Origin: Elusimicrobiota bacterium
Lineage (GTDB): Bacteria > CAYTYR01 > UBA6262
DNA: 26,527 bases
Direction: 5' to 3'
Assembly (NCBI GenBank): GCA_003153935.1
Contig: PMCA01000028.1
Coordinates: forward strand, 1-26,527
The notes beneath the pieces are model-generated. The model was not told the DNA's origin and did no database searches. It saw nothing but the letters and a program-made list of their open reading frames with translations. Shown here in pieces: positions 307 through 26,527 of this stretch (position 1 is the first letter of the stretch; every line of letters starts with the position of its first letter). The translations under genes and the position numbers were made by a program.

Positions 307-381
307 GGGGGTGTCCGTTAATGGCTAAACGACCGGTCTCCAAAACCGGAACTGTAGGTTCGACTCCTGCCACCCCCGCCA
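307..381 (+). tRNA. trnW: tRNA-Trp (anticodon CCA)
   Basis: A full cloverleaf can be drawn by eye. The acceptor stem is GGGGGTG (307-313) with CACCCCC (371-377). The D arm is CGTT/AACG. The anticodon stem is CCGGT/ACCGG with loop CTCCAAA, giving anticodon CCA. The T arm is GTAGG-TTCGACT-CCTGC. The discriminator base is G and the CCA tail is encoded. It lies seven bases after the rpmG stop, the usual tuf-rpmG-trnW order. Confidence 0.97.
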
Positions 382-446: not shown

Positions 447-474
447 TTGACAAGTCCTGATTTTGTGTTATATT
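447..474 (+). promoter_or_regulatory. Sigma70-type promoter for the MshEN pseudo-ATPase gene
   Basis: The -35 box is TTGACA (447-452) and the -10 box is TATATT (469-474), with a 16-base spacer. It lies just after the tRNA-Trp terminator and about 140 bases before the ATG at 618, so it should make a long leader. Confidence 0.8.
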
Positions 475-479
475 TTACT

Positions 480-617
480 TGGATAAACAACCAATCAAGA
501 TATTCACATAAAAGCCAATAAGCCACGAGAGACTTTGAGGCCTTTTAACAAGTTTATCTTTCATAAGTTCTATTTCAGGTTAGATTTGTTTAAGGGGCTC
601 ATCCAAGGAGAAAATTG
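480..617 (+). other. Long structured 5' leader, function unknown
   Basis: The leader between the promoter and the start at 618 shows nested complementarity. GATAAAC (482-488) can pair with GTTTATC (552-558). Inside that, AAAAG (510-514) pairs with CTTTT (542-546) and CC with GG. An alternative pairing is TAAACAA (484-490) with TTGTTTA (587-593). I recognise no known riboswitch consensus here. It may be a regulatory leader or just a folded UTR. Confidence 0.35.
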
Positions 618-2054
618 ATGCGGCCACTTGGCTGGGACAACCACACGCAGTACCGGCAGAAAAAATTAGGGGAGATGCTGGTTGAGGCTTCCCTGATAAA
701 TGAAAACCAACTGCAAACGGCGTTAGTCAAACAGCAGCGCTCCAGTAAAAAAATAGGCGAGATTCTCATTAACCTGGGATTTACTAATGAGGAGCTCGTT
801 CTTAATTTGTTAGGCAAACAGTTGAACGCTCCGTACGTTAAACTGGCGGAAACGGAAAAGATCGATAACCGGATCATCGGCAAAGTTCCCGAAAACATCG
901 CCCAGAATAATCTGGTCCTGCCGCTGAAAATGGAAGGCGACACGCTCTGGGTAGCTATGAGCGACCCGGCCAACCAGTTTCTTAAAAATGTGCTCGGATT
1001 ACTGACCGGCTATAACATAAAATCCTATATCGCCAGCCCCAAGGAGCTTAAGCAGGCCATATCCGCCTACTATTCCAAGGAAGGGCGATTCAAAACGGGC
1101 GTGGAAAGCCCGCAGACCCACAGTTATTTCCTGCCCTTAAAGCAACTCGGGTTCACCCCGCGCAGTCTGCAACTGTATGAAAAATACCTGGAAGCCCAAA
1201 AAGGCTGCATCCTGATCATCGGCCCGGAAAACAGCGGCAAGAAAACCACGGTTTACGCCAGTCTCAAGAAACTGAATTTCCCCGACAATGACATTGTCAG
1301 TGTAGAGAACAAACTGGATTATCATTTGGATAACGTCAACCAGATAGAAGTATCGCCGGAGATGGACATTAAGAACACCCTGGAATATGTCAACCAGTTC
1401 AATCCCAATATCCTGGCTGTGGAAAATATCCAGGGAGTTGGAGCCTGGAACCACCTGGGGCGCATGGCGGAAAAGGGGAACCTGGTGATCGGGACCATTA
1501 CCAGTGACCAGACCCTGGCGGATTTCCTGGCGGGATTTGTAGCGGAAAGATCGGACCATTATTCCCTGATCGAGCACCTGGACCTGGTAGCGGAGCAACG
1601 GCTGGCCAAAGCGGTTTGCCCCTATTGCAAAGGCAGCATAGAGATTTCCCGGAAAACGGCGGCCGCGGCCGGGCTGAAAGCCAGCGGCAAGCAGGTAACG
1701 GTATACGAGGGAAAGGGCTGCAAGATATGTAATTTCACCGGAACTTACGGGTATACCGCCTGTTACGGCATATTGCCTATAACGAATAAAATAAAGGACA
1801 TGATGATGCAAAAGGCCAATATAAGCAAATTCAAGAAAACCATCAACAAAGAATTCAAATACGAGCTGTCGGAAGTTCTGCAGGAGAAGCTGCTGAGGGG
1901 ACAGATACCGCTGGAGGAATACCTGCTGCTGACCGGCCAGGATTTTTCCCGGTTCAAAGAGCTGAAGGGCCTGAAACTGGCGGAGATGTACTGGTCTCTG
2001 TTCGAGCGTTCGGGCTCGGTCAACGCCTACCTGGAATATCGCAAAAAGAACTAA
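618..2054 (+). CDS. MshEN-domain protein with degenerate GspE/PilB-type ATPase core
   Basis: This 478-residue protein has the domain order of type II secretion or type IV pilus assembly ATPases. Residues 16-39 and 45-68 form two 24-residue MshEN motifs (KLGEMLVEASLI..Q, KIGEILINLGFT..Q) separated by five residues. This is the 24-5-24 layout known to bind c-di-GMP, although the leading Arg is Lys in both and a Gly is Ser in the first. The ATPase core looks inactive. Walker A reads GPENSGKKT (202-210, Lys where Thr is usual). The Asp box reads SVENK, Walker B reads NPNILAVEN (262-270, without the usual Glu), and the His box reads GTITSD with no His. The zinc tetracysteine is kept (C334, C337, C368, C371). 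I chose ATG 618 because AAGGAG at 605-610 is spaced for it; TTG at 615 is also in frame. It is probably a c-di-GMP-responsive regulator rather than a motor. Confidence 0.85.
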   Translation: MRPLGWDNHTQYRQKKLGEMLVEASLINENQLQTALVKQQRSSKKIGEILINLGFTNEELVLNLLGKQLNAPYVKLAETEKIDNRIIGKVPENIAQNNLVLPLKMEGDTLWVAMSDPANQFLKNVLGLLTGYNIKSYIASPKELKQAISAYYSKEGRFKTGVESPQTHSYFLPLKQLGFTPRSLQLYEKYLEAQKGCILIIGPENSGKKTTVYASLKKLNFPDNDIVSVENKLDYHLDNVNQIEVSPEMDIKNTLEYVNQFNPNILAVENIQGVGAWNHLGRMAEKGNLVIGTITSDQTLADFLAGFVAERSDHYSLIEHLDLVAEQRLAKAVCPYCKGSIEISRKTAAAAGLKASGKQVTVYEGKGCKICNFTGTYGYTACYGILPITNKIKDMMMQKANISKFKKTINKEFKYELSEVLQEKLLRGQIPLEEYLLLTGQDFSRFKELKGLKLAEMYWSLFERSGSVNAYLEYRKKN

Positions 2055-2075
2055 TATAGCAGTCAAAATAATTAC

Positions 2076-2103
2076 TTGACAAACGCCTAAATTATGATAT
2101 ATT
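2076..2103 (+). promoter_or_regulatory. Sigma70-type promoter for the riboswitch-controlled surface operon
   Basis: The -35 box is TTGACA (2076-2081) and the -10 box is TATATT (2098-2103), with a 16-base spacer. Transcription would begin near 2110, about 20 bases before the riboswitch aptamer. Confidence 0.8.
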
Positions 2104-2131
2104 ATTAGTAATCAAATTACACCTTGACAAC

Positions 2132-2226
2132 TTAACCGAAAGGGCAAACCCCGCGTGAGCGGGGGACGCAAAGCCACGGGACCGTGGAATACCCATAAAC
2201 AAGTGAGGTCAGCCGAGCTGCCGAAG
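2132..2226 (+). promoter_or_regulatory. c-di-GMP-I (GEMM-I) riboswitch aptamer
   Basis: The stretch carries the conserved GEMM-I signatures in order: AGGGCAAACC (2141-2150), a P2 stem CCCCGC/GCGGGG capped by a GTGA (GNRA) tetraloop, GGGACGCAAAGCC (2163-2175), and the 3' conserved block AGCCGAGCTGCCGAAG (2211-2226). The middle G of AGGGC at 2143 appears to be the ligand-selecting position. From memory of the family, G there favours c-di-GMP and A favours cGAMP. The aptamer sits between a strong promoter and the ATG at 2342, so it should control the secreted-protein genes that follow. Confidence 0.93.
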
Positions 2227-2258
2227 TTAATGAACCAGGCATCTCGGATTTTTGTTTT
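2213..2258 (+). terminator. Riboswitch expression-platform terminator
   Basis: CCGAG (2213-2217) plus TGCC (2219-2222) pair with GGCA (2238-2241) plus CTCGG (2243-2247), followed by ATTTTTGTTTT. The left arm is part of the conserved 3' block of the c-di-GMP aptamer, so the ligand-bound aptamer and this terminator cannot form together. This predicts that c-di-GMP turns the downstream genes on. Confidence 0.75.
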
Positions 2259-2275
2259 ACCGGACCCCCGGTAAA
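2256..2275 (+). other. Second hairpin in the riboswitch leader
   Basis: TTTACCGG (2256-2263) pairs perfectly with CCGGTAAA (2268-2275) around a four-base loop, directly after the terminator U-tract. It has no U-tract of its own. It may stabilise the read-through mRNA or block re-pairing. Confidence 0.5.
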
Positions 2276-2341
2276 CTTAAATACAAAGCCACGAAAGTCA
2301 CGGATGTGCTTTTGGGGCAAATCAAAAAGGAGGAAGAGCAC

Positions 2342-3487
2342 ATGAAGAAAGCACTAGTATTAGTTCTAACAGTGTTAGCTTTCGCCGGCATTACTGCTGT
2401 GGCGCATGCTGACCTGGACGTGTTTCTGAATGGCTGGATCGGGTCCTACCCGTCTATGTGGATGGGCGAGCAACAGGCCACTTATGGCGTGACACCCACT
2501 AACCATTCCATTACTTATTCTACAGCCGTAGGGGCTGGAGTGGGCGGAGAACAGGCTGCCAAGTTCCTTTATGACTCATCGAAAGAATCTTGGGCCGGTG
2601 AAGTGGTACAGGCTGGCGGCAGCGGCACAGGAACTATGGATTTAAGCGCTTATACTTCTTTAACCTTCAAGCTGAGAAAAGAAACCGGCGGGCCAGACGT
2701 TAAGATCCAGAAAATTTTCATGACTGACGGCAACGGCGTAGAATATGACGCGAGCGGCAACACTGCCAACGATCCCTCTGGCAAGATGATCACTCTCACC
2801 GGCGGCATGGCCGACTGGTCTGACGCTCTGAGCGTCACCATTGCTCTGCCTACCAGCGCCAATCTGGCTGCTGTGAACCAACTGTGGGGATTTGTCATTA
2901 CCGCTGCGGATAACGGCAGCACCGGCGGACAGTTTGCTTATTACGTGGACCAGGTAAAATATGCCGGCGGCGGCAAAGGTGAAGTCATCGTCAGGATCAA
3001 CGGCGGCAAGAGAGGTATCTCTGTGGCCGGCGTTATCAACTTCGGTACCATTGCTCCTTCTGCTAACGTTTTCTCGCAGGACCTGTCAGCTTCCAGCACA
3101 CCTCCCAGCGATTCACATTTCATTATCACCAACCTGGGCGACCAGAAAGACGAGATCTTAACGGTCGGGTTATCCAATCCGGCTGGTTGGACTGCGGTCA
3201 ATCAACCTAACTTCGCTTTAATGACCGGGAATCAATATGTATTAGAAGCTATTTTGAACTCTGGCATTCCGACTAAATCCTTATTTGATTCCAATTTTGC
3301 TAATTTAGTCCTGGTTGGCGGAGCTTCCAAAGCTTGTAACGGCACTTTCTTTGCCGGTGACGAGACTGGGAATCCTATTGTGAAGAACAACGGCACAGCC
3401 AATATGTGGCTGAGATTCGTTGCTCCTCCCAGCACCTCTACCAGCGCGGAAATGCACTTGTTCGTGAACATCGGATTCGTACAGTAA
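2342..3487 (+). CDS. Secreted protein with CBM-like domain and shared C-terminal module
   Basis: This 381-residue exported protein has a signal peptide at residues 1-23 ending AVAHA. A beta-rich domain follows (about 24-215) that resembles CBM11/CIA30-type carbohydrate-binding folds: ..SWAGEVVQAGG.. DLSAYTSLTFKLRK .. YYVDQVKY. The C-terminal part (about 220-381; FGTIAPSA.., NPAGWTAVNQ, ..FFAGDETG..) recurs at the end of the 996-residue protein encoded at 7204. Both halves are therefore paralogous to that protein. ATG 2342 is chosen because AAGGAGG at 2328-2334 precedes it and a signal peptide starts there; the longer reading frame from 2252 would run through the riboswitch leader. It is the first gene after the c-di-GMP riboswitch. 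The function may be matrix or surface binding; the substrate is unknown. Confidence 0.85.
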   Translation: MKKALVLVLTVLAFAGITAVAHADLDVFLNGWIGSYPSMWMGEQQATYGVTPTNHSITYSTAVGAGVGGEQAAKFLYDSSKESWAGEVVQAGGSGTGTMDLSAYTSLTFKLRKETGGPDVKIQKIFMTDGNGVEYDASGNTANDPSGKMITLTGGMADWSDALSVTIALPTSANLAAVNQLWGFVITAADNGSTGGQFAYYVDQVKYAGGGKGEVIVRINGGKRGISVAGVINFGTIAPSANVFSQDLSASSTPPSDSHFIITNLGDQKDEILTVGLSNPAGWTAVNQPNFALMTGNQYVLEAILNSGIPTKSLFDSNFANLVLVGGASKACNGTFFAGDETGNPIVKNNGTANMWLRFVAPPSTSTSAEMHLFVNIGFVQ

Positions 3488-3495
3488 TATAACCT

Positions 3496-3535
3496 GTTGT
3501 CTCTCTCTCCCGCTAAAACGGGAGAGAGAGACAAC
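3496..3535. repeat. Perfect 17-bp inverted repeat between two surface genes
   Basis: GTTGTCTCTCTCTCCCG (3496-3512) is the exact reverse complement of CGGGAGAGAGAGACAAC (3519-3535), with loop CTAAAA. It lacks a U-tract, so a simple terminator is less likely than an mRNA-stabilising or processing hairpin, or a REP-like repeat. Confidence 0.8.
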
Positions 3536-3562
3536 TCAATTCAACGCTCAGTGAGGGAGAAA

Positions 3563-5152
3563 ATGCAAAATTACAAAGTTGGCAAAGGGAGAAGGGGCTG
3601 GTATAAGTATCTAATTTTAGCTGCCATATTTTCATTAGGTCTTTTATCCAATTTATATGCTACCACTACTTGGACCACCACCTTTCCCGGCATTACCAAT
3701 CTCCCGATGGGATTTGGGAGCCCGGTTATTATTAGTAATGTAACCTATACTAATACCGGCACTGAATCTCTGAATTTCACCCTGACAGCGGAAAAATTGA
3801 TAGCGACACCTCCTACAGGTTATGTAGATGCTCCTGATGCCGCCTATTCGGCAACTACTCCCTGGATAACAGCAGCGCCCTCAACCTTTACGCTGGCAGG
3901 CGGCCAGGCGCAAACTGTAACTGTTACCGTTGAAGTTCCTTTTGATGTCACTTATTTATCCAAGAACTATGTCATCTACTTTAAGCAATCCGCTTCCGTT
4001 ACAGGCGGCGGGGTAGGATTGGCATTATATTCCAAGATCGATACTATACTTGATTCACAGGCCATATTAGCCAGCTTTAACGATATATCACCGGTCACTA
4101 AAATAAGTATGCTGGGAGATAAACTGATCATTAAATCCAAGATCATTAGTGCCGGAGCTAACACCGTAACCTTGAATTACGGATCTTCCACGGCGGCTAT
4201 TGCTGATTACACCAGTTTGTCAGCTAAGGACGTATCTGCTGTAACCGGTGAAGCTAACACTTACATTTATACTTTTGAAATACCTGCCAGCGCTATAGTC
4301 GCGCCGAGCTTAAAATACTTTATTAGATCGAAAGCGGGCGCCAGCATTGTCTATTACCCGTTTGCTACTACTTCGAACATTGTGACCTTTGATGGCGATC
4401 CTTACACCATAGACGTCACCCAGGTCACTAACGGCACTATTAGCGCTGGTTCAGTGTCCTCTATTATAGTTCCGGATGGCAACTCGGAAGACGGCGAGAT
4501 GCAGTTAGTTGCGGTTAAAAATGCCGTAAGTTCCAATCTTAACGTTACCATTACCCAGAAAGATAGAGCCGCTACTCACACTGCTCCGCCGATGTCCCTG
4601 AGCGATACCCCGGCGGCGGTATTCGATTTTGCTCCGAGTGGCACCAGGTTTGCTAAAGCCATAGACCTGACCATGCTCTATTTTGATAACGACAATAACG
4701 GCAAGGTTGATTACATTGAAAATTCCGACGGCGTGGCAAACACCATAGACCCGATTACTCTTCGTGTTTTCTACTGGGATGGGTTTAACTGGCGCCTGGC
4801 GGCTATGCCTACTATCAACACGACCGATCACACCGTTACCTGTAAGATCGATCATTTCAGCGAATACGCTCTCTTCCCGGTGGCGACCCTGACCCCAGAG
4901 GACTACCGGCCGAAGATGAAGATAATCACCCCGAACGGTGACGGCGTGAATGATGAAGCTGATTTCAACTCCCTTACGGAAGAGATTAAGATATTTGATA
5001 TCACCGGCAGGAAGATACGGTCAGTATCAGCCGGCACCGGCAAGTGGGACGGCAAGGATGATGGCGGCACTATCGTAGAAAGCGGAGTCTACATCTATCA
5101 ATTCACAGTCGACGGAACTTTAGTCAGCGGCGTTATCGCCGTGGCGAAGTAG
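3563..5152 (+). CDS. Secreted Ig-like protein with FlgD/CHU_C-type C-terminal domain
   Basis: This 529-residue protein has a basic N-terminus and a hydrophobic segment (signal peptide or anchor, roughly residues 13-33). The Ig-like domain that follows has ..PWITAAPSTFTLAGGQAQTV.., which resembles residues in the protein at 6204. Mid-protein is an Asp/Asn-rich stretch, DNDNNGKVDYIE, that could bind calcium. The last 75 residues (about 455-529) begin ITPNGDGVNDEADF and continue with IFDITGRKI, WDGKDDGG and SGVYIYQF. This is the FlgD-Ig/CHU_C fold used as a sorting or anchoring tail in type IX-like export. ATG 3563 has GAGGGAG just upstream; an upstream TTG at 3497 lies inside the hairpin and is unlikely. 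It is six bases before a TAG-adjacent PorV-like gene. Confidence 0.82.
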   Translation: MQNYKVGKGRRGWYKYLILAAIFSLGLLSNLYATTTWTTTFPGITNLPMGFGSPVIISNVTYTNTGTESLNFTLTAEKLIATPPTGYVDAPDAAYSATTPWITAAPSTFTLAGGQAQTVTVTVEVPFDVTYLSKNYVIYFKQSASVTGGGVGLALYSKIDTILDSQAILASFNDISPVTKISMLGDKLIIKSKIISAGANTVTLNYGSSTAAIADYTSLSAKDVSAVTGEANTYIYTFEIPASAIVAPSLKYFIRSKAGASIVYYPFATTSNIVTFDGDPYTIDVTQVTNGTISAGSVSSIIVPDGNSEDGEMQLVAVKNAVSSNLNVTITQKDRAATHTAPPMSLSDTPAAVFDFAPSGTRFAKAIDLTMLYFDNDNNGKVDYIENSDGVANTIDPITLRVFYWDGFNWRLAAMPTINTTDHTVTCKIDHFSEYALFPVATLTPEDYRPKMKIITPNGDGVNDEADFNSLTEEIKIFDITGRKIRSVSAGTGKWDGKDDGGTIVESGVYIYQFTVDGTLVSGVIAVAK

Positions 5153-5163
5153 GGGGGATGACG

Positions 5164-6114
5164 ATGAAAAAGTACACGCTGATCACTCTTACAATCATAG
5201 CGATGGCACTGACCATAAATACATTCACAGCGCAAGCTGCGTTCAAAGACACTGGTTGGGGAACCAGGCCTGCTGGCATGGGGGGAGCATTTGTTGCGGT
5301 AGCCAACGATAGTAATGCTCCCCTTTGGAACCCGGCGGGTATTGCCCAGATGAAGAACGCTGAAGGCAGCTTCATGTATTCAACCTACTATAACGGCTTG
5401 GATCTTAAAGCCGGTAATGACACGGTAAGCCTGGGATTCAACTACCTGTCATTTGTCTATCCTAAGTCCAGTATTGGCGCTTTTGGCGTCAGCTGGGCCA
5501 ATTTTACCGCCTCTAACCTTTATAAGGAAGACACTTATGTGATAACGTACGCCAAGCGCTTAAACGATTGGTTCCCGGGATTGACGCCCAAGGTCTATGT
5601 TGGTGTTAACCTGAAATCTATGGGGCACGCTTACACCCTCGACGATTATGCTAAGGATGACCCGGTATTTGCCTCAGGCAACTCTAAGAGCGCTTTTTCT
5701 GCCGATATCGGTACCTTAATTAAGCCTTATGACAAGATCTGCATCGGCCTCGTGGCCAAGAACCTGACCCAGCCGGATGTGGGATTGAAAGATACGGATA
5801 AAGTTCCTATGGAAATACTGGCCGGCGTAGCTTATAGGAATATTAACCTGGGGAATACAATACTGACCCCGGCAGCCGATTTCAGTATGAGGGACGGTGT
5901 TTCCACTTATCATCTGGGATTAGAGAGCTGGTTATTTGGTAAGAGCCTGGGACTAAGAGCTGGCTTTAATTCTACGGAAGCGACATTTGGATTTTCCTTT
6001 GATGGCCTGCGCAGCCAGGCACTAGGTCTGAATATCGATTATTCATTCATTATGCCGTTGCAGATAGCAAGTTCATCGGGCAGTCATAGAGTATCATTGG
6101 GGATATGGTTCTAA
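5164..6114 (+). CDS. PorV/UPF0164-like outer-membrane beta-barrel protein
   Basis: This 316-residue protein has a signal peptide (1-25, ending TAQA). After it comes GTRPAGMGGAFVAVANDSNAPLWNPAGIAQ, hallmark residues of the PorV/PorQ family of FadL-like barrels (segment quoted in parts: GTRPAGMGGAFVAVA and NAPLWNPAGIA). The rest is alternating beta-strand sequence ending in a C-terminal Phe (SLGIWF), as for Bam-inserted barrels. In type IX secretion, PorV receives cargo with C-terminal sorting domains, and the gene just upstream carries such a tail. ATG 5164 fits the GGGGGG ribosome site at 5152-5157; ATG 5158 is too close. It likely shares the riboswitch-controlled transcript. The role in export is inferred. 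Confidence 0.83.
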   Translation: MKKYTLITLTIIAMALTINTFTAQAAFKDTGWGTRPAGMGGAFVAVANDSNAPLWNPAGIAQMKNAEGSFMYSTYYNGLDLKAGNDTVSLGFNYLSFVYPKSSIGAFGVSWANFTASNLYKEDTYVITYAKRLNDWFPGLTPKVYVGVNLKSMGHAYTLDDYAKDDPVFASGNSKSAFSADIGTLIKPYDKICIGLVAKNLTQPDVGLKDTDKVPMEILAGVAYRNINLGNTILTPAADFSMRDGVSTYHLGLESWLFGKSLGLRAGFNSTEATFGFSFDGLRSQALGLNIDYSFIMPLQIASSSGSHRVSLGIWF

Positions 6115-6140
6115 AAAAGGAACATAATTAAATACCAACC

Positions 6141-6175
6141 TAAGGAGACTTCCCAAGAGGTCTCCTTATTGTTTT
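6141..6175 (+). terminator. Hairpin terminator after the PorV-like gene
   Basis: TAAGGAGAC (6141-6149) pairs with GTCTCCTTA (6160-6168), followed by TTGTTTTATT. The next gene starts only 28 bases later and I see no promoter between, so this may be a partial terminator. Confidence 0.75.
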
Positions 6176-6203
6176 ATTAAATCTCCTGCGAAGGGAAGAG
6201 AAA

Positions 6204-7067
6204 ATGAAGAAGAGCAGTTTGGCGTCATTATGGTCAATTATATTTATTTTGTCCTTATCTATAAGTGCCTGGGGAGCGTCTTTTACCGTTAATTTTTCGG
6301 ATATTGAACTGGACAACCTGAAGCCCGGCATGCCGGTCAGTCTGCTGCAGAAAGCCGCCTTTCCCCTGACCGTTACCAATACGGATAATAACAGTGAAAA
6401 TATGCGTTTTGAAGTCGTACTGCCGGAAGCGGGCCAGCTAAAAGAAGGTTATGAACCCATACCAGATGTAACCTGGATCAAGTTCGAGAGGGATAATTTC
6501 TGGCTGAAACCTAACCAGTCTGAAGACGTGGATATGATCATTTATACTCCTTACGACCAGAAATTGTTCGGCAAGAAGTATGAAGCGATCTTGGTCACTT
6601 ATACTTTGGAAGGTATGATGAAGGTCAATTTAAAGAGTAAGATGTTCATCGCCTTCAACAATGATCACTATCCACCCAGCGTGGTCAACGACCTGATCGC
6701 CGAAGATAGTATCAACAACACCTCATTATTGATGGCGCCGAAGTTGGTCAGCCTGGAGAAGGTCAAACTGAATAAGAACCTGCAAATGGCCAATCTGATG
6801 GTCACTAATACAGGCGCTCAGACCTTATCCCTAACATTTTACGCCGTGGGACTACAGAACGTCCCCGCGATAGTGGGGTTGGTAACGTTTAAGGATCAGG
6901 TTATGGAACTAAAGCCGAGGGAGACCAAATTATTGGCCATGACGGTCAATTTGCCGTTATTGCGGGCTAAAACCAGCGAACCGATGCGGATGCTGATTGG
7001 TGCCAAAGACACCAAAAAGACCACCCCTTTGGGCCAATTCATGGTGCTGGACCTTAATTTTCTCTAA
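6204..7067 (+). CDS. Secreted Ig-like protein of unknown function
   Basis: This 287-residue protein has a signal peptide of about 24 residues (..SISAWGA). The mature part is beta-rich. The segment TWIKFERDNFWLKPNQSEDV followed by YTPYDQKLFGKKYEAIL aligns in pattern with PWITAAPSTFTLAGGQAQTV and VPFDVTYLSKNYVIYF of the protein at 3563, so the two likely share an Ig-like domain of DUF916 or chaperone type. A second Ig-like part starts near residue 175 (..MANLMVTNTGAQTLSL). The ribosome site AAGGGAAG lies at 6191-6198. It follows a partial terminator, so it may be read through from the riboswitch operon. It could be a periplasmic partner for surface-protein export; the name is not known. Confidence 0.75.
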   Translation: MKKSSLASLWSIIFILSLSISAWGASFTVNFSDIELDNLKPGMPVSLLQKAAFPLTVTNTDNNSENMRFEVVLPEAGQLKEGYEPIPDVTWIKFERDNFWLKPNQSEDVDMIIYTPYDQKLFGKKYEAILVTYTLEGMMKVNLKSKMFIAFNNDHYPPSVVNDLIAEDSINNTSLLMAPKLVSLEKVKLNKNLQMANLMVTNTGAQTLSLTFYAVGLQNVPAIVGLVTFKDQVMELKPRETKLLAMTVNLPLLRAKTSEPMRMLIGAKDTKKTTPLGQFMVLDLNFL

Positions 7068-7079
7068 GACGGAATCAGG

Positions 7080-7107
7080 TTGACAATTAACGGAAATATG
7101 CTATATT
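7080..7107 (+). promoter_or_regulatory. Sigma70-type promoter for the large modular secreted protein
   Basis: The -35 box is TTGACA (7080-7085) and the -10 box is TATATT (7102-7107), with a 16-base spacer. A leader of about 85 bases follows before ATG 7204. Confidence 0.75.
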
Positions 7108-7123
7108 TATTATAACTGATATC

Positions 7124-7180
7124 AGAAGTCACGGGCTGGTTACAGGTTACTATGAGGTAGGATCTTCTGTAACCCTTTTG
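7124..7180 (+). promoter_or_regulatory. Putative attenuator in the leader of the large secreted protein
   Basis: GGTTACAG (7138-7145) pairs with CTGTAACC (7167-7174), followed by CTTTTG, a weak terminator. CAGAAG (7124-7129) can instead pair with CTTCTG (7164-7169), using the same right arm. The two structures exclude each other, as in an attenuator. No known ligand-binding consensus is seen. It could also simply terminate the preceding gene. Confidence 0.4.
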
Positions 7181-7203
7181 TTAAGCCTTAAGGAGTGAAA
7201 ATA

Positions 7204-10194
7204 ATGCAGATCACTAAGATGCTCAAAATTAATACTTGCCTGTTAAGTATTGTTTTGGGTATTTTTATTGCTTCCAATCTTAGGGCGGCAGAGTCCATTT
7301 TTACCTTTACCGAGCTATTTACCAATACCACTTACGAAGACTCCGGTACTACAGCCGATTGGGTGATCCCCGATATCAATACTTTTATGGGCATGGTCCG
7401 CTTGCCTAAAGATTCTACTCCCGGCAGCCCATCTAAGCAGGTTAATGGCAAGGTAATGTTGTCAGCCAGCGATGGCAACTTGTATTATGCCTGGGTGGAT
7501 TTCCGCAGCGGTATTGGCGATGGCAAGGGTCATATTTATCTCCAGAAGTATAATACCAGCGGCGTTAAACAGTGGGGCAATGAGAAGCAAGTAGATTCAG
7601 CTGGAACCGGTACATATATAAATGATGATTTCCTGACTCCTGTTCCCGGATTGATGGAGGGTATCGACGGCTCCATATTTGTATACTGGGCGGTGGGAGG
7701 CAACTTATGGGTACAGAAATTTGATAATACAGGCGCCAAAAAGTGGGGCGGCGACACTGTAGTAAATACCGCCTCGGTAACTACCTACAACTTCGGTTAC
7801 ACTCCTGCAGTGGTTGATTCCGACGGTAAGCTGGTATTCTTTTGGAGCAGCGGCTCAGGGTTATATATGCAAAAGATAGACGGCAGCGGTGCCAGCGGCA
7901 TCAAATCGGGCAGCCAGGTTTTGCTCCAGTCCGGCTATGTCAATAGGCCCATGGCCAGCCGGGATTCAACCAATCACTATTACGTGGCTTACACTTTATT
8001 TGATATCGGTTCCTTGCAAGATATCCTCTACCTGGACAAATTTAATACTGACGGGACCAGGGCCTGGGCCCAGCGTACCACGGTAGTCGCCTCTACCGGC
8101 ATCAGTTCCGTTGATATCGCTACTGACGCTTCCGGCAATAGTTATGTTGTTTGGGACGACTATCGCAATATCCTGTCTACCGGCCGGGACGTATTTATAC
8201 AGAAATTTGACTCCAGCGGTACCGCGTGGTGGGGCATGATGGGCAAGCAGATGAACACCGATACCGGCTATGCTGTCCAGCAGAACCCCAAAGTCAAGCT
8301 GGATGCAAACGGACTGCCCAATGTGATCTGGGAGGACCAGCGCTCCGGCACTAATGTCGATATTTACGCGCAGCATTACGATACCAACGGCAATAAGATA
8401 TGGAGCAGCGGGGAAGTTAAGGTAAACAAGGGGACCAATAGTTCCGCTTACTCGGAATATTTCGTGGGAGTCGCTGATAGCTTCGTTATCAATACCCAGG
8501 CCGGAGGGGACCAGAATTCCCTCTATGTTGCCTGGTTTACTGACCGCAGTAATGATTTCAATATCTATAGCCAAAAGGTTACCAGCTCCGGTACGGTAAG
8601 TTTTGGCACTGACCTGCAAGTAACAACGGAGCTGGGCGGCGGAGGGTATTTAAGCTCCGCGCATGTACAATCCACTAAACTTAACATTACAGCTATGAAT
8701 ATAACCGGAGCCAGGGTGTATGGTATTTACCTGAACTACGGCCAGACCATCAATTTTTCCCTGTCCAACGATGGCGGCGCTACCTGGGTGCCGACCACCA
8801 TGCTGGGAGCGAAGGTTAATTTTGCCAATTCCGGACACGATTTGCGCTGGAAAGCCGATTTTACCTCTACCGATCCCTTTCAAACCCCGGTTATTTACGG
8901 CCTGGTCATTGAGTATTTTATCCAGGGCGCAGGGGAGCCTTACCATAAAGTATTGCATATATATGATGATAATTGGGCCTATCCGCCAACGGGCTGGATG
9001 GCTGAAGGTAATAAGACCACTGCTATGACCATGGTGTCCAATAGCCCGGATACCCCGGCCCAGGGTAATGCCTGCGTTAAACTGACCTACAATCCCAATA
9101 TTGCCTCCTGGGCTGGCTTTTTTGTGCAAGCCAGCGGTAAATGGCGGGCCAACGGAGGGACCGGCATAGACCTGAGCAAATATTCACAATTGGTCATCAA
9201 GGCCCGGTCGGGCGACGCCAATGCCCAGGCTATCCAGGTGCAATTCGGCATAGGGGAGTCCGGAGACAGCTTTAAGGGCACCACTCGCTGGACCGTGTTA
9301 CCGACCACCTGGACCACTTATGTGATCGATCTGGCAGGGAGGGACCTGCATGATATAAACGGCCTGGTGATGATAAACATGCAGAGAGTGCAGAGAATAG
9401 ACCCGGTTATTTATATTGACGATATTAAGTTCCTGGGCCCTGGTCCGGCGGCGATAAGTGACCTGATGCCTTCTCTGGGCGCTGCCCCAGGCACGATGAA
9501 TTTATCCTGGACAGCTCCTGCCGGTGATTATACGAATACCAATTATATCGTGAAATATTCTACTTCCTATTTCAATAATGACACCGGATTTAACAACGCC
9601 ACCACTTATAGCCAAACCTGGTCCGTGGACGCTCCGGGTACTATTGAGAATCATGTCCTGAGCGGTCTTACCCCGGGACAGGGATACTATATCGCCATAG
9701 AGACCAAGGACGATCACCTTAATCAGTCGGATATCTCCAATGTTATCTACTATCATGCCCGCAGTGCGGGATTAGGTATCAAAGTGGATGGCACAGCCAT
9801 CGACCTGGGAGAAATGGCGCCCAACGAGAGCAAATCGGGAGGGCCGATCTCGGTTACTAATATCGGCGGTGTGCCTCTGACCGTCAGTTTAAGTATTATT
9901 AACCCGACGGGTTGGACTGCCGATGTCAGTAATTTAGCGCTGGATCATTATATGCTGATGGGGGCCTTTGCCACCGCTGTCGGCAATGTGAATTGGAACC
10001 CGGCCAGACATGCTATGCTGGCTACGCCAGCGGTGTGTACCGCCACGAAATTTGCCGGTGACAGTAACGGGGTCAATTTCGCCCTCGATGAGATGAGAAA
10101 ACTGTTCATTAACTTTACGGCCCCGCTAACGATACGGCCGGGGACGGAAAGCCAGAAGATATATATCAATATAGACGCGGGTACCGTCAATTAA
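7204..10194 (+). CDS. Large modular secreted protein: propeller-like repeats, CBM-like, FN3 and shared C-terminal domain
   Basis: This 996-residue protein starts with a signal peptide (about 1-29, ending NLRAA). Between bases 7480 and 8620 there are seven similar units of about 50-75 residues with the pattern IYLQKYNTSGVKQWG, VFIQKFDSSGTAWWG, IYAQHYDTNGNKIWSSG, as expected for a seven-bladed propeller. Then come a beta domain (about 480-575), a CBM11/CIA30-like domain (about 583-748, with DLSKYSQLVIKARS and VIYIDDIKF), and an FN3 domain (about 749-853, LSWTAPAGDYTNTNYIVKYS..LTPGQGYYIAIET). The C-terminal module (about 854-996) is shared with the protein at 2342. ATG 7204 is eight bases after AAGGAG; GTG 7195 is less likely. 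It is probably surface-bound and may bind polysaccharide; I see no enzyme motif. Confidence 0.83.
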   Translation: MQITKMLKINTCLLSIVLGIFIASNLRAAESIFTFTELFTNTTYEDSGTTADWVIPDINTFMGMVRLPKDSTPGSPSKQVNGKVMLSASDGNLYYAWVDFRSGIGDGKGHIYLQKYNTSGVKQWGNEKQVDSAGTGTYINDDFLTPVPGLMEGIDGSIFVYWAVGGNLWVQKFDNTGAKKWGGDTVVNTASVTTYNFGYTPAVVDSDGKLVFFWSSGSGLYMQKIDGSGASGIKSGSQVLLQSGYVNRPMASRDSTNHYYVAYTLFDIGSLQDILYLDKFNTDGTRAWAQRTTVVASTGISSVDIATDASGNSYVVWDDYRNILSTGRDVFIQKFDSSGTAWWGMMGKQMNTDTGYAVQQNPKVKLDANGLPNVIWEDQRSGTNVDIYAQHYDTNGNKIWSSGEVKVNKGTNSSAYSEYFVGVADSFVINTQAGGDQNSLYVAWFTDRSNDFNIYSQKVTSSGTVSFGTDLQVTTELGGGGYLSSAHVQSTKLNITAMNITGARVYGIYLNYGQTINFSLSNDGGATWVPTTMLGAKVNFANSGHDLRWKADFTSTDPFQTPVIYGLVIEYFIQGAGEPYHKVLHIYDDNWAYPPTGWMAEGNKTTAMTMVSNSPDTPAQGNACVKLTYNPNIASWAGFFVQASGKWRANGGTGIDLSKYSQLVIKARSGDANAQAIQVQFGIGESGDSFKGTTRWTVLPTTWTTYVIDLAGRDLHDINGLVMINMQRVQRIDPVIYIDDIKFLGPGPAAISDLMPSLGAAPGTMNLSWTAPAGDYTNTNYIVKYSTSYFNNDTGFNNATTYSQTWSVDAPGTIENHVLSGLTPGQGYYIAIETKDDHLNQSDISNVIYYHARSAGLGIKVDGTAIDLGEMAPNESKSGGPISVTNIGGVPLTVSLSIINPTGWTADVSNLALDHYMLMGAFATAVGNVNWNPARHAMLATPAVCTATKFAGDSNGVNFALDEMRKLFINFTAPLTIRPGTESQKIYINIDAGTVN

Positions 10195-21699: not shown

Positions 21700-21897
21700 A
21701 TGGATATTAAAGCAGTGCAGGAAAAAATCAAATTATTCTTCCGTGAAGTAGTGGCGGAGGGGAAAAAAGTTTCCTGGTCCAATAAGCAGGAGTTTATCGG
21801 GGCAACGATAGTGGTGATCTTCTCGATACTGGTCCTGGCGTTCTTTATCGGCCTGGTGGATTTAACTCTTTCCCGGCTATTCGGTTTAATAATGTAA
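21700..21897 (+). CDS. secE: Preprotein translocase subunit SecE
   Basis: This 65-residue protein has an amphipathic N-terminal helix (VQEKIKLFFREVVAEGKKVSW) and a single C-terminal transmembrane segment (GATIVVIFSILVLAFFIGLV), the minimal bacterial SecE layout. It clamps SecY in the translocon. VSWSNKQEFIGATIVVI is family-typical. It is followed ten bases later by nusG, the usual pair. The start codon at 21700 has a weak ribosome site. Confidence 0.95.
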   Translation: MDIKAVQEKIKLFFREVVAEGKKVSWSNKQEFIGATIVVIFSILVLAFFIGLVDLTLSRLFGLIM

Positions 21898-21907
21898 GGA
21901 AGGTAGT

Positions 21908-22438
21908 ATGGCGAAACGCTGGTATGTTCTACACACTTATACGGGCCACGAGGACAGGGTTAAGGAAAATTTACAGAACCTGGTGGTCACCAAGGGCTTG
22001 CAGGATAAGATCTTCGGCGTCCTGGTCCCTACGGAAGAAGTGGTAGAGATCAAGAATAATAAGAAGAAGATCTACACCCGGAAGTTTTTCCCCGGATATG
22101 TGCTCGTAGAGATGGATATGGACGAGCAGGTCTGGGGCATAATACGTACTACGCCCGGTATTACGGGATTTCTGGGCGGGCATACTCCGGTACCCCTGCC
22201 AGACGAAGAGATCAAAAACATCCTGGATCTGACCAACAAAGAACACGCGGCCAAACCTAAGCCGGCGATCATATTTGAGAAGAACGAAAATATCCGTATT
22301 ATTGAGGGGCCTTTCAGCAATTTTGCCGGTATAGTGGAAGAGGTTAATTTAGAGCGCGCCAAATTAAAAGTAATGGTGACGATCTTCGGACGGGCCACAC
22401 CGGTGGAGCTGGATTTCCTGCAGGTAGAGAAAATATAA
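21908..22438 (+). CDS. nusG: Transcription elongation/antitermination factor NusG
   Basis: This 176-residue protein has an NGN domain (KRWYVLHTYTGHEDRVKENL, then FFPGYVLVEMDMDEQVW and TPGITGFLGG) that binds RNA polymerase. A C-terminal KOW domain follows (NIRIIEGPFSNFAGIVEEVN.. ERAKLKVMVTIFGR..PVELDFLQVEKI) that links to S10 or Rho. The length is normal. AAGGAAGG precedes the ATG. Confidence 0.96.
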   Translation: MAKRWYVLHTYTGHEDRVKENLQNLVVTKGLQDKIFGVLVPTEEVVEIKNNKKKIYTRKFFPGYVLVEMDMDEQVWGIIRTTPGITGFLGGHTPVPLPDEEIKNILDLTNKEHAAKPKPAIIFEKNENIRIIEGPFSNFAGIVEEVNLERAKLKVMVTIFGRATPVELDFLQVEKI

Positions 22439-22445
22439 ACATTAG

Positions 22446-22490
22446 CGATTGCAGCGGCAATCAAAAAAACACTGCAATCGTATTTTTATC
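22446..22490 (+). terminator. Terminator/attenuator between nusG and rplK
   Basis: CGATTGCAG (22446-22454) pairs with CTGCAATCG (22472-22480), followed by TATTTTTATC. It lies between nusG and rplK, so it may be a partial terminator that lets the ribosomal genes be tuned. Confidence 0.8.
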
Positions 22491-22521
22491 GGTTCAACCA
22501 TTAATTTAAGGAGTTTAGTAA

Positions 22522-22947
22522 ATGGCTAAGAAAGTAAAAGCGGTAGTAAAACTGCAGATCCCCGCGGGATCAGCTACACCCGCGCCGCCGGTAGGACCGG
22601 CTTTAGGTCAGCAGGGCGTCAATATCATGGAATTCTGCAAACAGTTCAACGCCAAGACGGCCAGTCAAGAGCAGGGGATCATCATCCCGGTGATCATCAC
22701 CGTATTTGAGGATCGCAGCTTCACCTTTATCACCAAGGTGCCTCCGGTAGCCATCCTGTTAAAAAAGGCGGCCGGCATTGCCGTCGCCAGCGGTGAGCCT
22801 AACCGTAAAAAGATCGGAAAAGTTTCCAAAGATAAGGTCAAAGAGATCGCTATCCAGAAGATGGCCGATCTGAATGCCAATGACGTGGCTGCCGCCATAA
22901 AGATGGTAGAGGGTACAGCCCGGTCCATGGGGATAGAAATAGAATAA
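22522..22947 (+). CDS. rplK: Ribosomal protein L11
   Basis: This 141-residue protein binds the GTPase-associated centre of 23S rRNA. It begins [41 protein letters not shown] (quoted in parts), with the proline-rich [10 protein letters not shown] hinge typical of L11, and [18 protein letters not shown] later. The length is exactly that of the family. AAGGAG precedes the start. Confidence 0.97.
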
Positions 22948-22955
22948 ATATAATA

Positions 22956-22994
22956 GGTGGGAGGTCCGATGTCCATCGGACCGCTAAGACCACC
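22956..22994 (+). promoter_or_regulatory. L1-type RNA hairpin between rplK and rplA
   Basis: GGTGG (22956-22960) pairs with CCACC (22990-22994), and inside that GGTCCGATG (22963-22971) pairs with CATCGGACC (22974-22982). The GGTGGGAGG...CCGCTAAGACCACC pattern recurs between rplK and rplA in many bacteria and resembles the L1 site of 23S rRNA. A role in L1 autoregulation is inferred. Confidence 0.65.
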
Positions 22995-23005
22995 AGGGGG
23001 TAATC

Positions 23006-23710
23006 ATGTTGCACGGAAAGAAATACAACAAAGTGGTAAAATTGATCGATAAACACAAAGCCTATGTTTTAAAAGAGGCCACCGAGCTGGTAAAAAGCGC
23101 GGCGACCGCTAAGTTCGACGAAACGGTGGAGATCACCATTTGTCTGGGTATCGATCCCAAGCAGGCCGAGCAATCCATCCGCGGCGCGGTGGTTATGCCG
23201 CATGGCACCGGGAAGAGCAAAAGGGTCCTGGTCATCGCCAAGGGTGAGAAGATAAAGGAAGCCGAAGAGGCTAAAGCCGATTTCGCCGGCGCTGAAGATA
23301 TGATCGAAAAGGTCATGGGCGGCTGGCTGGATTTTGACGTGATCGTGGCTACGCCCGATGTCATGAAGGATCTTTCCAAGGCCGGCAAGATACTGGGGCC
23401 GAAAGGTTTGATGCCCAACCCCAAGGTCGGAACAGTTACTTTTGAAATAAGCAGGGCGGTAGGAGAGATCAAGAAGGGTAAAGTGGAATACCGGGCCGAC
23501 GCCTCGGCGGTTATCCATAGTATCGTGGGCAAGGTCAGCTTCCCGGCTACCAGCTTGGAAGAGAACGCCAAGGCGCTGATCGAAGCCATAGTGAAAGCCC
23601 GGCCGGCTACGGCCAAAGGCCAGTATATCAAATCCATGTCGCTGTGCTCGACCATGGGCCCCGGCATCAAACTGGATAGCACCCAGATACTGAATTCGCT
23701 TAATAAATAG
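23006..23710 (+). CDS. rplA: Ribosomal protein L1
   Basis: This 234-residue protein is the L1-stalk component and a translational repressor of its own operon. Signatures are [34 protein letters not shown] (quoted in parts), [15 protein letters not shown], and the RKGK-type [21 protein letters not shown] near the end. The length is normal. The start at 23006 follows AGGGGG. It is adjacent to rplK with the hairpin between them. Confidence 0.97.
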
Positions 23711-23723
23711 TTAAAAAAAGTTC

Positions 23724-23752
23724 TTGACAAATAAATAGGATTCTGTTATTAT
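23724..23752 (+). promoter_or_regulatory. Promoter of rplJ-rplL-rpoB
   Basis: The -35 box is TTGACA (23724-23729) and the -10 box is TATTAT (23747-23752), with a 17-base spacer. It lies 13 bases after the rplA stop and ahead of the L10 leader. Confidence 0.85.
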
Positions 23753-23757
23753 CTAAG

Positions 23758-23910
23758 AGTCGAAGAAAGCAAGGTATCCCGGTGCTTCTTATCGGGATTA
23801 ATTCTTTTTATTATAGAGCCTGCCGAGACCAGAGAAGTAAAATGCTGTGAAAAACTTCCATCGGTAAGGGACGGAAGTTTTTTTTATTTTTATATGGGGT
23901 AGCGAGGGGA
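23758..23910 (+). promoter_or_regulatory. Ribosomal protein L10 leader
   Basis: The leader of about 150 bases before rplJ contains GCCTGCCGAGACCAGAG near 23819-23835, matching the conserved core of L10 leaders where L10(L12)4 binds. It is followed by a terminator-like hairpin at 23851-23881. This fits feedback control of rplJ-rplL by L10. Confidence 0.8.
23851..23891 (+). terminator. Attenuator hairpin in the L10 leader
   Basis: AAAACTTCC (23851-23859) pairs with GGAAGTTTT (23873-23881), followed by a long U-tract (TTTTTATTTTT). It lies within the L10 leader, just before rplJ, so it is likely an attenuator that a bound or unbound leader favours. Confidence 0.85.
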
Positions 23911-23913
23911 ATC

Positions 23914-24447
23914 ATGCCGAAAACAAAACTTATCAAAAAACAAGTAATGGAAAATCTTAAGGACAAGCTCCAGAAAGCTAACGGAGTCATTGTCACCGAA
24001 TATCAGGGCCTGAACGTGGGCGACCTGAACGACCTGCGCTCGAAATTAAGAAAAGTTTCCTGTGAATACCATATTATCCAGAATACGCTACTGCATCTGG
24101 CCAGCCAGAACAGCGACTATACCGCGATCGATGACACCCTAAAGGGTCCGACCGCGGTTTGTTTTGTTTATGGCGACCCGGTAGCTCCGGCTAAGGTGAT
24201 CATGGACTTCAAGAAGGACCATGAGAAGCTGAAAGTCAAGGCCGGATTAATAGAGAAAAAGGTGGTGAATGAGAAGGAACTGAAATCGTTGGCTAGTCTG
24301 CCTTCCCGGCAGGTATTACTATCCATGCTGGTTGGCAGGCTCCAGGCCCCGATCGCCAATCTGGTTTATGTCTTGAACGGGCCGATAAGCAAGATGGTTA
24401 ACGTGTTAGACGGAGTGAAAAAGAAAAAAGCGCAAGCTGGCGCTTAA
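23914..24447 (+). CDS. rplJ: Ribosomal protein L10
   Basis: This 177-residue protein anchors the L7/L12 stalk. It starts with KTKLIKKQVMENLKDKLQKANGVIVTEYQGL (quoted in parts), followed by the family-typical VGDLNDLRSKLRKVSCEYHIIQNTLLHLA and GPTAVCFVYGDPVAPAKVI. A Lys/Ala-rich tail (VKKKKAQAGA) ends it. It is preceded by the L10 leader and followed by rplL after 36 bases. Confidence 0.96.
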   Translation: MPKTKLIKKQVMENLKDKLQKANGVIVTEYQGLNVGDLNDLRSKLRKVSCEYHIIQNTLLHLASQNSDYTAIDDTLKGPTAVCFVYGDPVAPAKVIMDFKKDHEKLKVKAGLIEKKVVNEKELKSLASLPSRQVLLSMLVGRLQAPIANLVYVLNGPISKMVNVLDGVKKKKAQAGA

Positions 24448-24483
24448 TATAATGTAAGCGCAAATAACGAGGAGGTGCAGTAA

Positions 24484-24861
24484 ATGACTGCAGTAAACAA
24501 GGATCAAATGATCGAGTCAATTGAGAAGATGACCGTACTGGAACTATCGGAGCTGGTCAAGGCTCTCGAAGAGAAGTTCGGCGTGAGCGCGGCCCCGCAA
24601 ATGGTAGCCGCCGCCGGCGTCGCTGGAGCTGCCGCGGTAGCGGAAGAGAAGACCGATTTCACGGTCATGCTTACCGGTTTCGGAGCCAACAAGATCGGCG
24701 TGATCAAAGTGGTCAGAGAACTGACCGGCTTAGGTCTGAAGGAAGCCAAGGACCTGGTGGAGGGCGTACCTAAACCAGTCAAAGAGGGCTTGCCTAAAGA
24801 TCAGGCTGCCGAGATGAAAAAGAAACTGGAAGATTCCGGCGCGACTGTCGAGTTAAAGTAA
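24484..24861 (+). CDS. rplL: Ribosomal protein L7/L12
   Basis: This 125-residue stalk protein recruits translation GTPases. It has an N-terminal dimerisation helix ([29 protein letters not shown]), an Ala-rich hinge ([15 protein letters not shown]), and a C-terminal domain with [41 protein letters not shown] (quoted in parts). The length is typical. GGAGGTG precedes the ATG. Confidence 0.97.
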
Positions 24862-24905
24862 TTAACCCCGACCCGTTCGGCGGAAAATTAACTAAATATT
24901 TGGTA

Positions 24906-24951
24906 AAAAAGTTTTTCTCTCTCTTTTTTATAGCAGAGAGTTAAACTTTTT
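24906..24951 (+). other. Long imperfect hairpin between rplL and rpoB
   Basis: AAAAAGTTTTTCTCTCT (24906-24922) pairs with AGAGAGTTAAACTTTTT (24935-24951) with only two T-T mismatches. The region lies between rplL and rpoB, where processing sites and partial terminators are common. It could be an RNase III-type site. Confidence 0.6.
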
Positions 24952-24989
24952 ATAATAAACTTGTTGTTAACGCGACAAATGAGGTAAAA

Positions 24990-26527
24990 ATGAGCAAAAA
25001 GAAATTGAATTTTGCCCGCATTCCTGCCATCATGGAAGTTCCGGATCTTCTGGAAATACAGAAAAGATCATACAAGGAATTCCTGCAGCGGGAGCCCGCA
25101 CCGGATAAAAGAAAATATATTGGCATTCAGGCTGCGTTCAAAGACACTTTCCCGATAACTAACTCTACCGGGACTTTGTCTTTAGAATACGTCAATTATA
25201 TTCTCGACGAGCCCGTGTATTCGGAAGAAGAATGTATCGAAAAGGACATCACTTTCTCTTCTCCGCTTAAAGCCAAGATCCGCCTCATCATCAAAGACCC
25301 GGAAGCCAAAAATAAAGTCAAAGAAGTTACCGAGCAGGAGATCTTCATCTGTGAACTGCCGTTAATGACCACTACCGGCTCGTTCATCATCAACGGCGCC
25401 CAGCGTGTGGTGGTCAGCCAATTACACCGTTCGCCGGGAGTGATTTTTGAAGAAGATGAGAATAACGCGATCTCCTCTTACGGGAAAAAACTTTACACCG
25501 CGCGCATCATCCCTTACCGGGGCGCCTGGGTGGAGTTTGAATTTGACGTCAACAACGTGTTGTACGTGCGCATCAACAAGAAGCGTAAATTCCCAGCCAC
25601 TACATTCCTGCGCGTGCTGGGTTATGAGACTGACGAAAAAGTACTCAACCTCTTTTACCAGAACCAGGAAGTTAAGGTAAAAGACAGCAAGGACAGCCAG
25701 GAAGCTCTGCTCGGAAAGTACCTGGCCAGCGACGTGATCAATCCGAAGACTGGCGAGATACTGGTAGACGCGGCCAAGGAGATCACCAAGGAAATATATG
25801 AGCTGCTGCTTAAAGAAAAAGCAGAAAAAGTAAAATTACTGGTGATCGATCCGCAGATCAATAACGTCGCCATTCTCAACACCATCAAGAAAGACCCCAT
25901 TAAATCCAATCGCGAAGTGGCCCTGGAGATATTCAAGAAACTGCGGCCCTTCGATTTCCTGGGCACGGAAATGGCCCAGAATTACCTGCAGGAACTGCTG
26001 TTCACCAATCCCAAGAAATACGACCTGGGCAAGGTGGGCCGGTATAAACTGAATAAAAAATTGCATTTACAGGTCGCCGAAGCCAAGCGCACCCTGACCA
26101 CCGATGATATCATCCAGACCATGAAGTATGTTATCGACCTGAACAACGGTATCAGCGAGATCAAGGACAACCACGGCAAGATCGTGGAACGCCGCATCAT
26201 CGACGACATCGACCATCTTGGTAACCGGCGCGTCCGCTCGGTAGGGGAACTGCTGGAGAACCAGTTCCGCATCGGCCTGTCGCACATGGAGAGGCTGATC
26301 CGTGAAAAAATGAACATCAAGGACCTGGAGAACATTACTCCGCGCGACCTGATCAATACATCGCCGATCGTCGCGGTTATCCGGAAGTTCTTCGGTTCCA
26401 GCCAATTATCGCAATTCATGGACCAGACCAATCCGCTGGCGGAGCTGACCCACAAACGCCGGTTGAGCGCGCTCGGACCAGGCGGTTTGAACCGCAAAAG
26501 AGCGGGCTTCGAAGTCCGCGACGTGCA
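24990..26527 (+). CDS. rpoB: RNA polymerase beta subunit (5' part)
   Basis: The frame from ATG 24990 is open to the window end (512 codons and part of one) and has no stop, so the gene continues past the window. Family segments in order: [21 protein letters not shown] near the start, [30 protein letters not shown] (quoted in parts), and the rifampicin-region residues [34 protein letters not shown] (quoted in parts) at the end. At the E. coli D516, H526 and S531 equivalents the residues are the sensitive-type D, H and S. GAGG precedes the start. Beta forms the catalytic cleft of RNA polymerase. Confidence 0.98.

Follow-up and report, generated by a model that had tools for sequence, protein, structure and literature searches.

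The window analysed here, a 26,527-nucleotide stretch of DNA (contig C33 of a 1.75-Mb draft Elusimicrobiota genome), carries a c-di-GMP riboswitch predicted to switch on a surface operon and, directly upstream, the gene of a PilB-derived protein with a c-di-GMP-type domain and degraded ATPase motifs (hereafter the pseudo-ATPase). We consider somewhat probable a model in which the riboswitch switches the operon on and the pseudo-ATPase serves as an adaptor or decoy on a type IV pilus or T2SS-like machine. The parts of this circuit are known; the circuit would be a new variant built from them, of narrow distribution.

Organization and conservation of the locus

The features of the locus are as follows, in window coordinates with strand in brackets.

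447..474 (+), promoter of the pseudo-ATPase gene, sigma-70-type, TTGACA-16-TATATT (motif; conservation across four genomes begins about here)
618..2054 (+), pseudo-ATPase, 478 aa, MshEN and degenerate PilB-type motor domain (profile matches, alignment, dN/dS 0.08-0.10)
663..821 (+), two 24-residue MshEN c-di-GMP motifs, residues 16-39 and 45-68 (motif match)
2076..2103 (+), promoter of the riboswitch operon, TTGACA-16-TATATT (motif and conservation)
2134..2226 (+), c-di-GMP-I riboswitch aptamer, GGC variant model (Rfam)
2213..2258 (+), terminator with 5' arm CCGAGCTGCC (2213-2222) and 3' arm GGCATCTCGG (2238-2247), then ATTTTTGTTTT (expression platform, predicted ON switch)
2342..3487 (+), secreted protein with a CBM-like N-terminal domain and a C-terminal domain common with the 996-aa protein (sequence comparison)
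3496..3535 (+), intercistronic hairpin, 18 bp (strong hairpin also in the other genus)
3563..5152 (+), secreted protein with a CHU_C/T9SS-type C-terminal tail (profile matches)
5164..6114 (+), PorV/PorQ-family-like outer-membrane barrel (profile match)
6141..6175 (+), conserved terminator-like hairpin separating the PorV-like gene from the one that follows
6204..7067 (+), secreted protein, 287 aa, matching no family (single copy in the window, two copies in the sister genus)
7204..10194 (+), secreted protein, 996 aa, with fn3-type and CBM-like/C-terminal domains and its own promoter at 7080 (profiles, promoter motif)

The locus was compared among four genomes of one family, belonging to two genera (G000, G001, G002 and G003), with G004 as sister-family genome; named orthologs occur in Elusimicrobia bacterium UBA6262, an Elusimicrobia groundwater MAG and bacterium STB_115. 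ORF calls recovered all genes named in an earlier note on this DNA, in the order it gave, and this order is kept throughout the four family members. In G000, G001 and G003, the pseudo-ATPase gene is followed without interruption by the riboswitch and the CBM-like, tail protein, PorV-like and so-called Ig-like genes; G002 has the identical order split over two contigs, with about 350 extra bases between the pseudo-ATPase gene and the switch, both being retained. Co-occurrence of the pseudo-ATPase with the riboswitch and the surface genes holds in 4/4 family members, and the gene was found in no other place. Neither outcome that the earlier note had named as refuting its idea, an order unique to this genome or a pseudo-ATPase that accompanies other loci and never the surface genes, was seen. 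Among the 386 genomes searched, only these four carry it; the other matches listed begin near residue 167, are confined to the motor domain and lie in a longer open frame of 568-599 aa, and the viral contigs searched contained no relative. The CBM-like protein is found in the same four of five genomes searched and not in the sister-family genome, which has no pseudo-ATPase, yet possesses riboswitch-led PorV genes.

Each of the two units has a near-consensus promoter, and the pseudo-ATPase gene is, to judge from these motifs, transcribed from its own promoter and outside riboswitch control. Upstream conservation begins at about this promoter in the four genomes, and the left neighbour of the gene is different in each of them. 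Downstream, the collinear block continues into rplM-rpsI-argC-argJ; as the adjacency lies within a longer collinear block, synteny of four related genomes offers weak evidence for coupling.

The block is flanked on one side by an rpmG-like ORF with tRNA-Trp (window 307-378 region) and on the other (window 21700-26527) by a short ORF (possibly secE), nusG and ribosomal/rpoB genes, which usually lie close behind rpmG. There are 10 GGDEF matches in the genome.

The riboswitch and its expression platform

The c-di-GMP riboswitch previously placed at 2132-2226 scores above the cut-off of both Rfam models (68.3 bits versus 59 for RF03167; 65.3 bits versus 35 for RF01051), and the aptamer exceeds the Rfam threshold in all four family members. 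Its bases at the ligand-selective positions are of the c-di-GMP type (G20/A47/C92, assigned on Vc2 numbering). An A at position 20 would point to cGAMP; position 20 being a G, cGAMP was set aside and c-di-GMP is the predicted ligand.

The aptamer's 3' strand doubles as the 5' arm of an intrinsic terminator in 4/4 family members, each time with ATTTTTGTTTT behind it, so that ligand binding should prevent termination. The observed terminator stem was reached in 6, 14, 31 and 14 of 2000 shuffles, respectively, all of which preserved the T-run, and the pairing register is not the same in the two genera. The overlap also occurs in six further switches of these genomes (each 0 or 1 of 2000 shuffles), while the layout of the G004_C89 switch failed a stricter test. 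An ON switch for the surface operon is thus a well supported prediction, which lends good support to the earlier proposal that one signal controls expression of the surface module.

A tandem c-di-GMP riboswitch elsewhere (L085, 12248-12340, minus strand) shows a C instead of a G at ligand-selective position 20 of its distal aptamer (AAAACGCAAA). This C is conserved in four genomes (L085 and the matching tandem loci L090, L091 and L092).

Surface genes of the operon

The product of 2342-3487 was described as CBM-like, a label that is weakly supported: CBM11, CBM22 and EclA are matched at the level of fold (Z 5-6, from a low-confidence model), but there is no Pfam match, and a PDB profile search using the family returned nothing significant. 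The two AlphaFold models are poor (mean pLDDT 43 and 46), so these fold matches are hints only. The export-type tail of 3563-5152 was recovered as a Pfam CHU_C type IX tail (37.7 bits, cut-off 27); in NCBIfam it scores 28.1 as type B (cut-off 35) and 21.8 as type A (cut-off 23). The likeness of the third product to PorV also stood, but as a divergent one, with 63.2 bits against NF033709 where the family cut-off is 90; the homolog at the C8 locus reaches 201 bits against the same PorV/PorQ profile. Finally, 'Ig-like' found no family support for 6204-7067 in Pfam and NCBIfam profile searches. The hairpin at 3496-3535 is strong in the sister genus too, with a wholly different sequence.

Further downstream, the leader of the 996-aa gene (window 7108-7185) is conserved in four genomes and followed by a T-run. 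Its CAGAAG/CUUCUG-type and GGUUACAG/CUGUAACC-type pairings look mutually exclusive, and the leader in the window matched no Rfam family. A SAM-SAH candidate in the leader of a 975-aa gene (L082) was rejected (20.8 bits versus 40) and is missing in the window.

A PilB-derived protein with a degenerate motor domain

The MshEN domain spans residues 14-156 of the pseudo-ATPase (Pfam, E 2.5e-17), residues 168-435 match the C-terminal part of T2SSE (E 2.3e-29), and its closest relatives by match are PilB proteins. The NCBIfam MshE-type c-di-GMP motif NF053729 is matched at residues 16-68 (57.7 bits, cut-off 38), with the two 24-residue motifs and 5-residue spacer of MshEN receptors. Most contact residues are kept (PMC5013675), the deviations being R to K (twice), G to S and L to V. 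Lys for Arg is tolerated or favourable in Thermus PilF, and a first-position Lys is known from high-affinity binders (PMC11731258). Binding of c-di-GMP could be weakened by Gly to Ser at residue 25 (motif I, invariant in 4/4 orthologs) and Leu to Val at residue 61 (motif II). The product had been called a putative c-di-GMP-binding pseudo-ATPase, and the above-cut-off MshEN motif and degraded ATPase motifs agree with this, binding itself being a prediction.

The alignment reference was the set of three complete MshEN motors encoded in this genome. The pseudo-ATPase is missing the whole N2 domain with its SDIHIEP region in 4/4 orthologs. Its Walker A motif reads GPENSGKKTT (versus GPTGSGKTTT in the complete motors), departing from GxxGxGK[ST] with loss of the Mg-binding Thr, its catalytic Glu region reads VENIQG (versus VGEIRD), and the His box is lost (TIT/TIN). 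The C4 zinc motif of the CTD is retained (CPYC...CKIC). All these losses are identical in 4/4 orthologs from two genera, and dN/dS between sister-genus genomes (0.08-0.10) is comparable to that of ribosomal protein S9, in keeping with strong purifying selection; common losses and low dN/dS thus point to a conserved non-motor protein and not to a decaying gene. Judged by its sequence, the pseudo-ATPase cannot work as a motor. Conservation is not confined to MshEN (the RecA-like domain is 64% invariant), which suggests a protein partner. A YqzL-like C-tail was set aside, the match being too weak (E 0.03-0.05).

Riboswitches ahead of PorV and T9SS-type genes

PorV-family genes lie at most 5 kb downstream of two of the three riboswitch loci in G000 and three of the nine in G004 (P about 9e-4 and 5e-4, respectively, by a simple binomial estimate). 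Riboswitches lie ahead of PorV/T9SS-type genes at a rate above chance, sister family included. Another riboswitch-led gene of G000 encodes an S8 protease whose tail is of T9SS type A, and in G004 the riboswitch-led products include GH113 and S8 proteins ending in CHU_C-type tails. Each of the five genomes has a candidate distant homolog of SprA (SprA/Sov profile, 159.9 bits, E 5e-47, cut-off 200); a search for a PorU-type C25 peptidase, run without a positive control, gave no match. No report joining a c-di-GMP riboswitch to type IX secretion was found in open-licence papers, a scope which therefore gives no proof of novelty.

At another locus of G004 (L100), a c-di-GMP riboswitch with an overlapping terminator (584-502, minus strand) directly precedes an MshEN ATPase gene (437-3, minus strand) cut by the contig end, which would put both an RNA and a protein reader of c-di-GMP on a single transcript.

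Proposed circuit and alternatives

In the model that we favour, high c-di-GMP would bind the aptamer and block the overlapping terminator, switching on the CBM-like protein, the T9SS-tailed protein and the PorV-like barrel, as well as the 287-aa protein beyond an attenuating terminator. This expression step is the well supported part of the predicted circuit. The separate promoter would supply a PilB-derived protein that keeps MshEN and the zinc site and is not motor-competent. We infer that its most likely role is that of an adaptor or decoy, dependent on c-di-GMP, on a type IV pilus or T2SS-like machine of the inner membrane. Contacts with stator or platform might be made through its N1 domain and CTD and would bring pilus behaviour into line with the surface state; in PilB, the proposed stator contact lies in N1 (PMC11656802).

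The two units might instead be neighbours by descent, the riboswitch controlling the surface operon and the pseudo-ATPase being an unrelated regulator that lies upstream by chance in a conserved block. Two units with separate promoters, a collinear block that runs at least eight unrelated genes further downstream and a sampling of one family only are all compatible with this. However, the pseudo-ATPase stays while its left neighbour changes in 4/4 genomes, it has the same presence pattern as the CBM-like protein (four family members, not the sister family), and both units are predicted c-di-GMP readers; we take such chance proximity to be possible, but less than probable. The full model of the earlier note, in which c-di-GMP bound to the pseudo-ATPase would directly control activity or export of the surface proteins, seems to us quite improbable, even though the adjacency in 4/4 genomes, the MshEN motif and the presence of a T9SS-type tail, a PorV-like barrel and a SprA-like translocon in the same genome speak for it. 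Riboswitch-led PorV/T9SS-type loci exist elsewhere without a pseudo-ATPase, and T9SS draws its energy and gating from an inner-membrane motor and the outer membrane, with which, to our knowledge, no PilB-derived cytosolic protein is in contact. Direct contact is implausible because the pseudo-ATPase has its own promoter and is cytosolic by family, while the module is bound for the outer membrane. It is more likely that a cytosolic pseudo-motor acts on type IV pilus or T2SS-like machinery rather than on outer-membrane export.

The retained Walker A Lys (SGKK) makes nucleotide binding without hydrolysis possible, and the pseudo-ATPase could accordingly be conceived as a c-di-GMP sink or nucleotide-binding sensor with no pilus partner; the conservation reaching through the RecA-like domain argues for a protein partner, and we hold a sink or sensor to be very improbable. 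A more far-reaching form of the favoured model, in which the riboswitch turns on a T9SS-type module while a c-di-GMP-gated dead pilus motor reprograms pilus or secretion machinery, is tentative and on the whole unlikely. It would amount to a feed-forward circuit for surface attachment whose effector, a pseudo-PilB, is undescribed so far. The circuit as a whole, if true, would link c-di-GMP to T9SS-type surface display, for which the open-licence papers searched gave no report, and pseudo-motors would be added to the modes of type IV pilus regulation already known. It also provides testable predictions for a poorly studied lineage.

Comparison with known systems

The CHU_C/Por-type tails, PorV-family barrels and candidate distant SprA homolog recall Bacteroidota type IX secretion (SprA, PorV, CTD cargo), for which c-di-GMP riboswitch control was not found described in open-licence papers. 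In Clostridioides difficile, pili and surface proteins under riboswitch control (Cdi-2-4/pilA1 and others) likewise couple c-di-GMP to read-through into surface genes, but pilA1 has a class II riboswitch in a Gram-positive host, and neither an adjoining MshEN pseudo-motor nor T9SS-type cargo is described there (PMC6200980). Vibrio cholerae MshE likewise joins the c-di-GMP-binding MshEN domain to a motor of the PilB/GspE type, but is an ATPase motor (PMC5013675), whereas the pseudo-ATPase has lost N2 and catalytic residues. NfrB-type effectors also carry MshEN outside an active pilus motor, with an enzymatic glycosyltransferase output (PMC8669469) in place of the dead motor domain found here. 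Finally, the PilB cofactors FimX and PilZ are non-motor proteins that tune pilus extension (PMC11656802); although their folds (degenerate GGDEF-EAL and PilZ, respectively) are unrelated to the pseudo-ATPase, they offer the functional analogy that we propose for it.
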